35,525 nucleotides of DNA from positions 1-35,525 of the forward strand of contig JANTGK010000013.1 in NCBI GenBank assembly GCA_024762935.1, written 5' to 3'. The first letter of the stretch is position 1. Each line of letters starts with the position of its first letter. Position numbers and translations under genes: made by a program. A model generated the notes under the pieces. That model saw nothing but the letters and a program-made list of their open reading frames with translations. It was not told the DNA's origin and ran no database searches. This DNA comes from Candidatus Peregrinibacteria bacterium. Lineage in GTDB: Bacteria > Patescibacteriota > Gracilibacteria > CAIRYL01 > GCA-016699755. Positions 9,786 to 16,128 of the stretch are shown piece after piece.

Positions 9786-10721
9786 TTATTCTTCCTGCTT
9801 GTTTTTATTAAACATTTTCGAGAAAAATGTTTTTTTCTTACCACTATTATCACTTTCTTCTTTCTCATCCACAGGATTTTGTTCCATATCACCGTCAGCA
9901 GCATCCTTTTTTTCCTCAATATCATTTTCACCTTCTTCTAGAGCTTCATCCGCTTCTTGATTTTCCTCTGAAATATTTTCATTTTCTTGTTTTTTGACAT
10001 GCTCCTGATCTTCTTGTTCATCTATTTCCGCATAAGGGTCGAGATCAGATTGATTTTTCTCATCAGCAATATCTTTCTGAAAAGAAAGTCCATCTTTTGC
10101 TTCATTTATGTCAATAAAAACAGTATCACCACTGACAAATTCATCTCCCAAGAGCGCATCTGAAAATGGGTCTTCTACATATTTCTGGATAGTTCGACGA
10201 AGCGGCCGAGCACCAAAGGCAGGGTTATATCCTTTTTCTGAAAGGAAAGATTTTGCAGCATCAGAGAGACGAAATTCTATATTCTTTTCACGGAGCATTT
10301 CTCTTGGCTCCCGAAGCATAATATCAACAATAAGTTCTAGATCTTTTTTTCGTAATGGATGAAAAAAAATAAGATCATCAAAACGGTTGAGAAGTTCAGG
10401 ACGAAAGAATTTCATAAGAGTTGGAAGGACTAATTCCTTTGTTCTCTCCTGAAACTCTTGTTCTGGAGTTTTTGAAAAGTCACTTTCACCATCACTCTCA
10501 TTAACTTCACCAACAATTTCATCAACTGTTTTTTCCGTATTTGTTTGCTTATCTTCAGTCTCTTCCAAAGGACCTTCTTCCGCAGTGTTTTCTGTATCTG
10601 AATCCTGAGCCCCCTCTTCAGATTCGCCCCTTTCTTTCTTGGCATTTTCAGAGTTTTCAGGAGATGATTCCTTATCCTTTGTCTCATCAACTGGTGGATT
10701 AATTTTATTTTCGTCTGTCAT
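9786..10721 (-). CDS. ClpC-like AAA+ unfoldase, C-terminal part of split D2
   Basis: A 311-residue protein that supplies the end of a ClpC/ClpB-type second AAA+ domain. Residues 1-88 are acidic low complexity, rich in Glu, Asp, Ser and Thr. Homology starts at about 89 (QEFQERTKELVLPTLMKFFR). It contains the D2 arginine finger in FRPELLNRFDD (106-116), the sensor-2 motif FGARPLRRTIQKYVEDP (169-185) and the D2 small domain ending near 207 (DTVFIDIN). A second acidic tail (about 224-292) follows, then a basic-aromatic end, GKKKTFFSKMFNKNKQ. It has no Walker A or B, so it cannot bind and hydrolyse ATP alone. It lies 35 nt after the stop of the N-terminal partner in another frame, with its own ATG and an in-frame TAA 15 codons upstream. 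Confidence 0.9.
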   Translation of the reverse strand: MTDENKINPPVDETKDKESSPENSENAKKERGESEEGAQDSDTENTAEEGPLEETEDKQTNTEKTVDEIVGEVNESDGESDFSKTPEQEFQERTKELVLPTLMKFFRPELLNRFDDLIFFHPLRKKDLELIVDIMLREPREMLREKNIEFRLSDAAKSFLSEKGYNPAFGARPLRRTIQKYVEDPFSDALLGDEFVSGDTVFIDINEAKDGLSFQKDIADEKNQSDLDPYAEIDEQEDQEHVKKQENENISEENQEADEALEEGENDIEEKKDAADGDMEQNPVDEKEESDNSGKKKTFFSKMFNKNKQEE

Positions 10722-10756
10722 TTGTATATCAAAAGAGGGAATATCACTAAAAAGTA

Positions 10757-13258
10757 TTACTCTTTAGGAGTGATAAAATTTTTAAGAAAATCGTTATCTT
10801 CAGATTTTTCTGAAGCACCAGGAATTACCGTACCTGGAGGAATTTTGCTTGGAGGAATGAGATTCTCTTCTTGAGCAGGAACTTGAGAAGATTTCTCGGA
10901 AGATTTTCCATCCTGAGATGCTTCTTGTTGAGAATCACTATTTTCCTCTTCTGAGGATTCTGACACACCACTTGCTTCAGATTCTTTATCAGACTCCTTA
11001 GTGCTATCCTTTTCAGAATTCTCACTTCCTTTCTCATCTTCTGTTTTCATTTCATCTTTTACATCCTCTGCAATCTTTTCTTCTTCACGCTTCATTTCTT
11101 CTTCAACACCTTCGTTATGCTTCCAGAATTCGGCATATTTTTGTGCGATCAGACGTGATGCAAGGTTAGAAGTACAAATAATGATGGTGTGTTTAAAACC
11201 AACAAGTCGTCCATGATTATCTGTCAAACGCCCATCGTCAAGAATTTGAAGAAGAATATGAAAAACAGCAGGATGTGCTTTTTCAACCTCATCCATCAAG
11301 ACAATTGAATATGGTTGTTTTCTTACCGCTTCAGTGAGTTCTCCTCCCTTCTCATATCCAACATATCCAGGAGGTGGCCCAGTAAGACGAGCTACCGCAT
11401 GTTTTTCCATGAATTCTGACATATCAAACCGAATCACAAGATCATCACGTCCAAAAAGAGTTTCCGCAAGAGTTTTAGCAAACTCAGTTTTACCGACTCC
11501 AGATGGTCCCATAAATAAAAATGATCCAATCGGTCGTTTTGGCTTACGAATCCCTGATCGACCACGACGGATAGCAGCTGAAACTGCTTTTACAGCATAG
11601 TCTTGACCAATAAGACGCTTATGAAGAACATCTTCAAGTTTCAAGAGACGATTTGCTTCTGAACCAGCAATGTGTTCCATTGGAACCCCACTCCAACGAG
11701 AGATAACTCGAGAAAGATGCTCCTCTTTAATCTCATCATGACTTCGGGACTGCTCATCTTCATGTTCAGCTCGAACCTCTTCCAGTTTCTTTACTTTTTC
11801 ATTAATATTCTGCTCTAAACGGGTAAGCTCTTCAATATTCACAACTCCTTTTGCACGCTCTTGCTCAGCTCGGAGTTTTTGAATCTCTTTTTGAAGCTTT
11901 TTTTCTCTCCCAGGAGCCGATATTCCTGGCATACGAGCCATGGCAGCTGCTTCATCTATCAGGTCAAAGGCTTTGTCCGGAAGAAACCTGTTACTGATAT
12001 ATCGCATAGAAAGTGTGATAGCCATACGAAGAATATCATCAGATATTTTTACTTTATGAAAAGCTTCATATTTATCGCGAGACCCTTGAAGAATTTGCAA
12101 AGTCTCATCAAAAGACGGCTCTGCAATAAAAACTGTTTGGAATCTTCGTGCAAAGGCAGCGTCTTTCTCAATATGCTCATGATGCTCAGCTGTAGTTGTG
12201 GCTCCTATTAAATGGATTTCACCACGAGCAAGAGGGGGTTTTAAGATCTGTGCTGCATCGCCTGATCCACTACTAGAAATAAGAGTATGAATCTCATCAA
12301 CAAAGAGAATGATTTCACCACTACTCTTTATGGCCTCTTTAACTATTCCTTCCAATCGCTGTTCAAATTCACCACGCTTACTCGCCCCAGCAACAATGGT
12401 GTTAATGGCAATGGCAATGATTCTTTTTCCCTTTAAAACATCAGGAACATCACCACGGACGATTCGATTGGCAAGTCCTTCAGCAATAGCCGTTTTTCCA
12501 ACACCAGGCTCTCCAATTAAAAGAGGATTATTTTTTCGTCTTCTCGCAAGAATATGAATAGTACGCTCTATTTCATCACTTCTTCCGATAACCGGATCTA
12601 CCTTTCCTTCACGTGCCATTTGACAAAGGTCAACACCATACTTATCAAGCATTGGAGTATACTCATTTACCAGAACATCTTTTTTTTGACCAACGCCAAC
12701 TACATTTTTAATTTGATTTTCAAGAGGCTCCTGGGTAATTTCGTGTTTTTTTAATATCTTTGCTGCCACCCCATCTCCCTTTGAGAGAGCAACTAATAAA
12801 TGCTCACCAGCAGTAGCATGGTGACGAAGTTTCCTTCTCTCAACATCTGCTTGAATAAGTATATTTTTTGTTCGTACAGAAAAGGGAAGGAATTTGGCAG
12901 GATTCTTATTGTTTCCCTCCCGAATTTCCTTCTTTGTTTCTTCTTTTAATGCCTCAACATCAATCTCCATCTTTTCAAAAATCTGATGAAGAACAGCATC
13001 TTTTTCTGCATTTCTCAAAATACCCATTAACAGATGTTCCGTATCGATGTCCTCAGCATGAACCTTTCGGGCTTCTTCATTTGCAAAAATTAAAATTCTT
13101 CGCATTGAATTACTGAAGAACTCATCAAGATTCTGGAGTGAATTTGCAGGTATGACATTTGGAACCTCTTCCTCAGTATTCTGTGGATTTTTGGATTCTG
13201 TATCCTTTTTTACAGAAATATTTTTTTGGGGCGGGGCCTTTTTCTTTTCATCAGGCAT
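10757..13258 (-). CDS. clpC: ClpC-like AAA+ unfoldase, N-terminal part (N domain, D1, first part of D2)
   Basis: An 833-residue protein. It has a Clp N domain (about 50-185, with [11 protein letters not shown] and [14 protein letters not shown] repeats). D1 has Walker A GEPGVGKT (249-256), Walker B ILFVDEIH (317-324) and finger DAAFARRF. A coiled M domain follows (about 450-515). D2 has Walker A GPSGVGKT (584-591), Walker [12 protein letters not shown] (652-662), pore loop GYVGYEKGG and sensor 1 ICTSN (Asn698). Homology stops at about 720, just after sensor 1. The rest is an acidic Ser/Glu/Lys tail of about 115 residues ending in a proline-rich stretch ([14 protein letters not shown]). The arginine finger and sensor 2 of D2 are on the next gene. 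The D1 pore loop reads AGASKRGEF where AGTKYRGEF is usual. The ClpP-docking VGF position reads AEF (709-711). No clpP is in the window. Confidence 0.93.
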
Positions 13259-14253: not shown

Positions 14254-16128
14254 ATGTGTATGGGCTTAAAATTATTTTCTTCAATTCATGAGGGAGGAAA
14301 AGAGGGGAGCGAAACACGATTTTATGAGAAACAGATTGGAATGAATCATCTTTGGATTCTGACTCTCCTACCGATTTCAAATTCAAAAGTTGAAGAGATC
14401 ATGAAGCATCTCCAGATTCTCTTGAGTTCAAAATTACTCGACTCGACCACCACGGAAGATGTTGAAGAAAATTTTGAACGAGCATTGAAAGATTTAAATG
14501 ATACCCTTCCAGAAGTAATCGGTGAAGATGCAGAAACTATACTGCGAACAGGTGCTATGATTATTGGATATCTCCATGATGAAGAACTCCTTGTTTCCAG
14601 TTTTGGTCAAGGGGAAGTGTTCCTTCTTCGAAATAGATCACTCATGGAAATATCAGAAGGATTATCACCCACTGATACAAAAGCTGAATTTTTTCAAAAT
14701 ATAAGTAGTGGGGATGTGCAGGATGGTGATAAACTCATTTTTTCTACATACCGACTGAAGCGATACATAACAGAGAGACAAATCATTACAGCCCTTGAAG
14801 ATGGTGTTACAGAAGCCATGGAAGGAATTACATCTACTATAGATACGAGTGAAAACGGAAACATCTTACTCCTCAATGTAAAAATATCTGAGCCTCTCTC
14901 TTTTGAACAAAAAAATGAAAAGGCAAAAATTTCAAGAGATATCTTTCAAAATACTTGGAACCAAATATGTAACACCGGAAAGAATCTCTTTCAAAAAACA
15001 CAGAGGGTATTTCCTAAACTAAAAAAATCACATGCGCTCCTCATCGGTGCTGGAGCAATCGCTCTTCTTCTTCTATTCCTCTTTTTTAATCTCCTTTCTG
15101 GTCAAAATAATAAAAAGGAGAACATAGAATATACTGAATTCATTAATACTATTGAACAACAATTATCAACAGTAGAAACAAGATTTATTGAGGGAAAAAT
15201 TGATCAAGCAAACCTTATTCTTGATCGAATTGAAGATCAAGCAAGTGAGATGCTACAAAAGAGAGTTGATGTCGTGAAGGCTGACCAAATTCTTGCAATC
15301 GTGCGGAGCAAAAGAGAATACGTAAATCGAATTATGCGTATTACTAATCCTGAAGTTATGGCTGATCTCAGTGCCATTAATTCTGAAATAGAATCACGTG
15401 GGTTCTTTTTTCTAAAAAATGAGATTATCACTTTTGACAAGGATTCCCTCTATAGAACACTAATCTCTGGGACAAAGGCTGAAGGTCTTGGAAAAATAAC
15501 AGATAACGGAGAGCTCACCATGGGAGTATCCTTTCCTGCAAAAGATGAAGGTGTCTTTATGACAAAAGGAGGAAATGTTTTAGAATGGGAAAATGGTCAA
15601 ACTATTACAGCTGATACAGCAGATGCCACATGGAAGCCAGCGAGAGAAATAAAAACGTTCTCTAAATTTCTCTATTTTCTCGACAATCAATCAGGACAGA
15701 TTTGGAAGTATGAACGACGAGAAAGTGGATTTACTCTTGCAGAGGGGTGGGCAACAACAGGAAAGGAAGTCTTAAAAGATGCTGTTTCATTTGCCATTGA
15801 CGGAAGTATATTCGCCCTCACCAAATCAGAAGGAATCGTAAAATTCCATCTCAATGAAAAAGTAGACTATGAACTCAAAGATGTACCCAACGGAACACTG
15901 AAAGGAGATAAGATATACACTGATGCTGATCTCGGTTCACTTTTTGTTCTTGATAAAGAAGATCACAAAGTGCTCATTTTTTCAAAATTTGAAAACGAAG
16001 CCGTCTACAAAAAACAAATCATCCTTGAAGGAACAGAAGGACTCGTTGATCTTTTTGCGACAGAAAATAAGCTCTATGTTCTCGGAAAACAGAGGATATA
16101 TGAAATTGCTCTTAACGGCGACGAATAA
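14254..16128 (+). CDS. PP2C-like pseudophosphatase with TM helix and propeller-like C-terminus
   Basis: A 624-residue single-pass membrane protein. Residues about 4-210 follow the PP2C phosphatase pattern: LWILTLLPIS, a helix with TEDVEENFERALKDLNDTLP, GAMIIGYLHDEELLVSSFGQGEVFLLR, and DGDKLIFSTYRLKRYI (where PP2C has GD-x-L-L-L-x-S-D-G-L). The metal-binding aspartates are not preserved: the usual GDSR turn reads GQGE, and no N-terminal DG motif is seen, so it is probably catalytically dead. One TM helix (about 261-283) follows. The outer part has a helical stalk (about 290-370) and then beta-rich repeats (GGNVLEWENG, KFLYFLDNQSGQIWKYER, GSLFVLDKEDHKVLIF, NKLYVLGKQRIYEI), like a beta-propeller. 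Start is ATG 14254 or ATG 14260; the second gives MGLKLFSS. Confidence 0.75.
   Translation: MCMGLKLFSSIHEGGKEGSETRFYEKQIGMNHLWILTLLPISNSKVEEIMKHLQILLSSKLLDSTTTEDVEENFERALKDLNDTLPEVIGEDAETILRTGAMIIGYLHDEELLVSSFGQGEVFLLRNRSLMEISEGLSPTDTKAEFFQNISSGDVQDGDKLIFSTYRLKRYITERQIITALEDGVTEAMEGITSTIDTSENGNILLLNVKISEPLSFEQKNEKAKISRDIFQNTWNQICNTGKNLFQKTQRVFPKLKKSHALLIGAGAIALLLLFLFFNLLSGQNNKKENIEYTEFINTIEQQLSTVETRFIEGKIDQANLILDRIEDQASEMLQKRVDVVKADQILAIVRSKREYVNRIMRITNPEVMADLSAINSEIESRGFFFLKNEIITFDKDSLYRTLISGTKAEGLGKITDNGELTMGVSFPAKDEGVFMTKGGNVLEWENGQTITADTADATWKPAREIKTFSKFLYFLDNQSGQIWKYERRESGFTLAEGWATTGKEVLKDAVSFAIDGSIFALTKSEGIVKFHLNEKVDYELKDVPNGTLKGDKIYTDADLGSLFVLDKEDHKVLIFSKFENEAVYKKQIILEGTEGLVDLFATENKLYVLGKQRIYEIALNGDE

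Follow-up and report, generated by a model that had tools for sequence, protein, structure and literature searches.

A Clp/Hsp100 unfoldase gene divided into two open reading frames within its second AAA+ domain in a Candidatus Peregrinibacteria bacterium

Organisation of the locus

The window, by which the whole analysed stretch of 35,525 nt is meant, carries on its minus strand two adjacent open reading frames (ORFs) resembling the two parts of a single Hsp100 unfoldase. This raises the question of whether one AAA+ module is encoded here in two pieces and rebuilt from two chains, or whether the gene is simply an interrupted one. The locus belongs to a draft genome of 1.38 Mb in 82 contigs (completeness 95.8%), the one genome from which the split is known. 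The two ORFs lie in different frames, and the main segments are as follows.

10757-13258, minus strand: chain 1, 833 aa (ATG at 13258, TAA at 10757)
13133-13258, minus strand: N-terminal extension of chain 1 (residues 1-42), low-complexity and predicted to be disordered
10760-11122, minus strand: C-terminal tail of chain 1 (residues 713-833, 121 residues, net charge -20)
10722-10756, minus strand: spacer of 35 nt between the chain 1 stop and the chain 2 ATG, T-rich (17 T of 35)
9786-10721, minus strand: chain 2, 311 aa (ATG at 10721, TAA at 9786)
10467-10721, minus strand: N-terminal tail of chain 2 (residues 1-85, net charge -20), predicted to be disordered
9789-10094, minus strand: C-terminal tail of chain 2 (residues 210-311, 102 residues), acidic, net charge -23

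The tail of chain 1 is predicted to be helical up to residue 744 and disordered beyond it, and the C-terminal tail of chain 2 closes with a basic and hydrophobic KKKTFFSKMFNKNK patch.

The Pfam search assigned Clp_N, AAA with AAA_lid_9, and AAA_2 to chain 1, the last match ending at profile position 157 of 166, and ClpB_D2-small alone to chain 2. Chain 1 is thus laid out as N domain, D1, a short middle domain, D2 as far as sensor 1 and an acidic C-terminal tail, and chain 2 comprises a D2 helix, the arginine finger, the β5 segment, sensor 2 and the small domain, with acidic tails on either side. The full domain set of class I Hsp100/Clp proteins (N domain, D1, D2 and D2 small domain) is obtained only when both chains are combined, and the class trait of one polypeptide per subunit is not seen. 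This division agrees with an earlier note on this DNA, which had assigned the N domain, D1 and D2 up to sensor 1 (Asn698) to the first chain and the D2 finger, sensor 2 and small domain to a second chain 35 nt downstream in another frame; ORF coordinates, Pfam matches and motifs all bear this out. Chain 2 matches the C-termini of solved ClpB and ClpC D2 domains with an E-value of 3.5e-28 and has the same predicted fold, which places the two-chain match far beyond chance.

The split gene is one of three Hsp100 genes in this genome, the others being a ClpB-like gene (L001) and an intact clpC (L002) (G000:C3, C11). The genome also encodes ClpP (L179), and the ClpC of L002 contains an IGF loop. 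Near the split gene, at 14254-16128 on the plus strand, lies a gene whose product has a central transmembrane segment and a sub-threshold Pfam match to FtsH_ext only. The starts of chain 1 (13258) and chain 2 (10721; MTDENKINPP) are alike, 21 of 25 nt around the ATG being identical. The chain 2 start might conceivably derive from a duplicated 5′ end (post hoc DNA shuffle p of about 0.06).

Catalytic residues, conservation and predicted structure

The catalytic and pore-loop motifs were located in the following positions.

Chain 1 residues 249-256, minus strand: D1 Walker A (motif position)
12362-12391, minus strand: D1 pore loop ASKRGEFE of chain 1, with Lys in place of the Tyr or Phe of other Clp proteins
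Chain 1 Asp321/Glu322, minus strand: D1 Walker B (motif position)
Chain 1 Arg371/372, minus strand: D1 arginine fingers (motif position)
11486-11509, minus strand: D2 Walker A GPSGVGKT (chain 1 residues 584-591)
Chain 1 residues 631-634, minus strand: D2 pore loop GYVG (motif position)
11288-11293, minus strand: D2 Walker B Asp656-Glu657 (chain 1)
11165-11167, minus strand: D2 sensor 1 Asn698, the final D2 catalytic residue on chain 1
10383-10385, minus strand: D2 arginine finger Arg113 of chain 2, within RPELLNR (107-113)
10206-10208, minus strand: D2 sensor 2 Arg172 of chain 2, within GARPLRR (170-176)

In both AAA+ sites the Walker A and B motifs, sensor 1 and the finger were all located, and the D2 finger and sensor 2 are found solely on chain 2. 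As had been claimed earlier, neither chain alone possesses a complete D2 site; the parts are complete between the two and are conserved as in intact relatives. Of the columns whose conservation among other Clp proteins reaches 90%, the split gene keeps 89 of 98 in D1, 63 of 70 in the large D2 subdomain and 12 of 13 in the chain 2 part, and the corresponding figures for the closest intact relative, G002:C56, are 92/98, 61/70 and 11/13. The two genes share 67.9% identity over D1 and the D2 large subdomain and 47.4% over the C-terminal part of D2. Identity of the C-terminal part is also lower in most other Clp pairs, so chain 2 does not seem to be decaying unusually fast.

In the predicted model of chain 2, the block means of pLDDT are 81-98 over residues 81-220, and the model superposes on ClpB NBD2 at 1.2-1.4 Å in several entries. 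The single-chain model of chain 1 has the N-D1-M-D2 fold of Hsp100 proteins, with a lower confidence for D2 than for D1 and with just two long helices between D1 and D2, at residues 450-472 and 475-505. The DDLIFF β5 segment is not a strand in the model of chain 2 alone. This, together with the less certain D2 of chain 1, is as expected for complementary fragments.

Relatives of the split gene

A search for orthologues at the level of the order, across 353 genomes of the class, in 380 sampled from the phylum and in genomes of named species yielded one close orthologue set. It consists of three single ORFs, G002:C56 (1037 aa, 62% identity to chain 1), JACPHH010000020.1 (G249:C26, 888 aa) and G250:C88 (784 aa). 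The alignment used relied on truncated relatives. In the trees, the chain 1 region placed the split gene and these orthologues in a Gracilibacteria clade of four members with a support of 100/98, where the split gene and G002:C56 were sisters (100/99). In the tree of the shorter chain 2 region the same pair was recovered (97/85), and the clade of four was weak (49/89). The separate pairing of each chain with the G002 protein indicates that both ORFs are pieces of one ancestral gene.

The clade is also marked by its D1 pore loop. A lysine in place of the aromatic residue (degenerate ASKRGEFE pattern) occurs in exactly four of the 353 class genomes, the same four, and every other Clp protein among the motifs listed has Tyr or Phe before RG. 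The four Hsp100 proteins of the clade (the split gene, L005, L040 and L145) have a non-aromatic D1 pore loop, and the ClpP loop is absent from all of them, those of G002, G249 and G250 included.

The split is lineage-specific. The nearest genome of the same family, G001, encodes ClpC and has no close match to the split gene, and no second genome with a split was found among the matches listed for the 353 class genomes, a search that weak or distant splits could escape. Short ORFs resembling chain 2 in G272, G342, G038, G269, G346 and G252 lie at contig ends and the one in G268 adjoins an N-masked run, and they were rejected as splits; many further such ORFs were set aside as belonging to families with in-frame TGA. 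A scan of viral contigs with chain 2 gave no match.

The G002 orthologue lies directly downstream of a gene for a large TrbL/VirB6-like membrane protein (L084 62-3490), which has a long low-complexity tail and a Pfam match below the cut-off. In G249 and G250 (L145 5992-7668; L040 2-934) the orthologue is preceded by a gene whose uncharacterised product looks similar, the one from G249 being without a Pfam match.

Position of the cut and the junction

The earlier note had proposed looking for the same two-ORF layout in close relatives and had taken uninterrupted ORFs as evidence against a two-chain D2; the three other clade members are indeed uninterrupted. Still, the split does not reduce to a simple artefact, since the relatives differ from it in length and in sequence at this place. 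From sensor 1 to the finger there are 247 residues across both chains, a feature beyond the earlier note, vs 37-46 in the three intact relatives. Most of these residues are the acidic tails, whose sequence is absent from the sensor 1-finger loop of the relatives. A simple frameshift in a gene of normal length is thus rejected, both tails being also coding-like in their own frames. Local alignments of one tail with another were no better than those of shuffles. The cut falls in a hypervariable D2 loop, the ClpP-docking position in ClpA and ClpC, which bears IGF in the genome's own ClpC; because the loop varies in length across the family, it is a permissive place to cut.

A different kind of interruption has to be considered more seriously. 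The gene might be one ORF with an acidic insert of about 200 residues at the ClpP-loop position, from which one base near the junction is missing, either in the assembly or in the strain; with a sequencing error the split would not exist, and with a real mutation the gene would just be broken. Upstream of its ATG the frame of chain 2 stays open over 42 nt, from 10763, that is, from upstream of the chain 1 stop, and a change of one base anywhere in some 7 nt (10757-10763) would be enough to fuse the ORFs. Each of the nearest relatives is a single ORF, and G002:C56 bears a long C-terminal extension, so that long extensions are tolerated in the clade. Read in the chain 2 frame, the spacer has positive log-odds by generic codons, a score that is ambiguous, lying at the 22nd percentile of coding and the 86th of open intergenic sequence. 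However, the permissive stretch spans very few bases, with no long homopolymer among them, and the spacer reads unlike the tails: on the tail model it scores below every one of 168 tail windows, and its T content exceeds that of all other 35-nt stretches in the tail region. The codon log-odds follow the chain 1 frame down to 10757 and the chain 2 frame from 10721 on, with the ATG placed exactly at the transition. Besides, for the tRNA-synthetase and ABC ATPase families, 26 matches in the same genome came without any reported internal stop. Taken together, this makes the loss of one base from a longer gene rather unlikely. Since few if any genes of the window carry a ribosome-binding motif, little can be concluded from the lack of one before chain 2.

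It is less likely again that both proteins are made and D2 is not rebuilt, with chain 1, its D2 dead, acting as a chaperone or threading ring powered by D1 and chain 2 being a separate accessory protein or a decaying fragment. The D1 of chain 1 is complete, and ClpC1 truncated at the C-terminus retains ATPase activity without oligomerising (PMC3527473). But D2 keeps its Walker A and B motifs, GYVG, sensor 1, the finger and sensor 2, and the retention of invariant D2 positions at the rate of intact relatives would be unexpected if D2 had long been dead. The D1 pore loop without an aromatic residue also counts against this explanation, since D1 alone looks the weaker for it as a threading ring. 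A programmed frameshift or stop bypass fusing the ORFs in vivo is very improbable: the ORFs are adjacent and the chain 2 frame opens slightly before the chain 1 stop, but by inspection the 7-nt overlap (CCT AAA GAG TAA) has no slippery heptamer, and the spacer peptide would form an odd island between the tails.

Comparison with known systems

The intact genes of G002, G249 and G250 share with the split gene the orthologous clade, the SKRG-type D1 loop, the lack of the ClpP loop and the full catalytic set; they differ in being one ORF each and in lacking acidic tails in the loop from sensor 1 to the finger. ClpC and ClpE are alike in domain order, the short middle domain, D1 and D2 motifs and fold. 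In contrast to them, the split gene is cut inside D2, has the acidic tails and the cut in place of the IGF/IGL-type docking loop that ClpC and ClpA have between sensor 1 and the finger, and carries ASKRGEFE, like its clade, in place of the aromatic D1 pore loop (KYRG/KFRG). The label 'ClpC-type' given earlier is therefore correct as to architecture and too specific with the ClpP-docking loop absent. ClpB also has no ClpP loop, and the ClpB equivalog TIGR03346 is the top-scoring NCBIfam model for both chains, with 770.9 bits for chain 1 and 114.9 bits for chain 2, each below the cut-off of 1232.1; the split itself depresses both scores. The best match of chain 2 is NBD2 of Thermus thermophilus ClpB. 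Unlike the long four-helix middle domain of ClpB, that of the split protein is short.

Splitting of Hsp100 genes as such is known. In the algal plastids of Nannochloropsis and Trachydiscus, clpC is naturally divided into clpN, clpC1 and clpC2, and the plastid ClpC2 is also without a clear ClpP loop (PMC3999925, PMC4603697). The plastid cuts lie between domains and leave the AAA+ modules whole, whereas here the cut lies inside D2 and one active site is shared by two chains. A search of open-licence papers found no published split within an AAA+ module, in line with the earlier remark that no ClpC or ClpB split at this place had been described. An intra-module cut would thus be new if the split survives read-level checking.

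Proposed assembly and function

It seems that the gene is a genuinely split member of an Hsp100 clade lacking the ClpP loop, whose two chains reassemble one D2 non-covalently; the probability of this reading is put at roughly 0.55. The two-chain D2 ring proposed in the earlier note stands as the simplest functional reading, and against it are the unsplit state of the relatives and the possible loss of a single base from a longer, fused gene. We infer that two separate proteins are expressed, assemble and are active. An ancestral single gene would have been cut within D2, in the surface loop that separates sensor 1 from the arginine finger, each new end bearing an acidic disordered tail, and the adjacent genes would now yield two chains. 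Chain 1 would contribute the N domain, D1 and the Walker motifs, pore loop and sensor 1 of D2, and chain 2 the D2 finger helix, strand β5 and the small domain that bears sensor 2. In the AAA+ topology the edge strand β5 lies beside the P-loop strand, and chain 2 would dock on the D2 core of chain 1 with its β5 in this position. In the hexamer, each D2 ATP site would be composed of chain 1, chain 2 of the same protomer (Arg172) and chain 2 of the neighbour (Arg113).

By motif, Arg172 and Arg113 of chain 2 correspond to R806 and Arg747 of T. thermophilus ClpB, respectively. Arg747 is the proposed finger of that protein, and the ATPase activity of NBD2 is almost abolished in the sensor 2 mutant R806A (PMC3940203). 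In ClpC1, C-terminal deletions lead to oligomerisation defects (PMC3527473). These effects suggest that chain 1 by itself would not be able to run D2 properly and would assemble poorly. To go by the title of Beinker 2005 as cited in PMC4239642, ClpB does not need NBD1 and NBD2 to be covalently linked in order to work. More tentatively, D2 ATP sites formed by three polypeptides might receive sensor 2 and the finger in trans from a chain 2 that can be withheld or exchanged, which would make D2 switchable by subunit supply; we regard this as doubtful at present.

The absence of the ClpP loop indicates that the ring is probably a ClpP-independent unfoldase, and its function might be unfolding or disaggregation. 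Proteolysis in this genome is probably served by ClpP and the intact ClpC rather than by the split ring.

To our knowledge, published work on Hsp100 proteins treats D2 as one continuous fold, in which Walker, sensor and finger residues move together. If the proposed reading is true, the D2 core and the lid of β5 and small domain can be separate proteins, and the locus provides a natural test of the contribution of the lid to the ATP cycle as well as a convenient site at which Clp or Hsp104 motors could be divided to make them controllable. If it is confirmed, two separate chains must meet for each unit of the engine. An Hsp100 clade without an aromatic D1 pore loop or a ClpP loop is a separate lead on the importance of D1 threading.

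Other Patescibacteria (L168-L178) encode a third Clp paralogue with an N domain, in which the D1 loop is aromatic. Some of these paralogues have a GF motif at the ClpP-loop position and others do not, and the frame of one of them, G497:C37, reaches 1300 aa.
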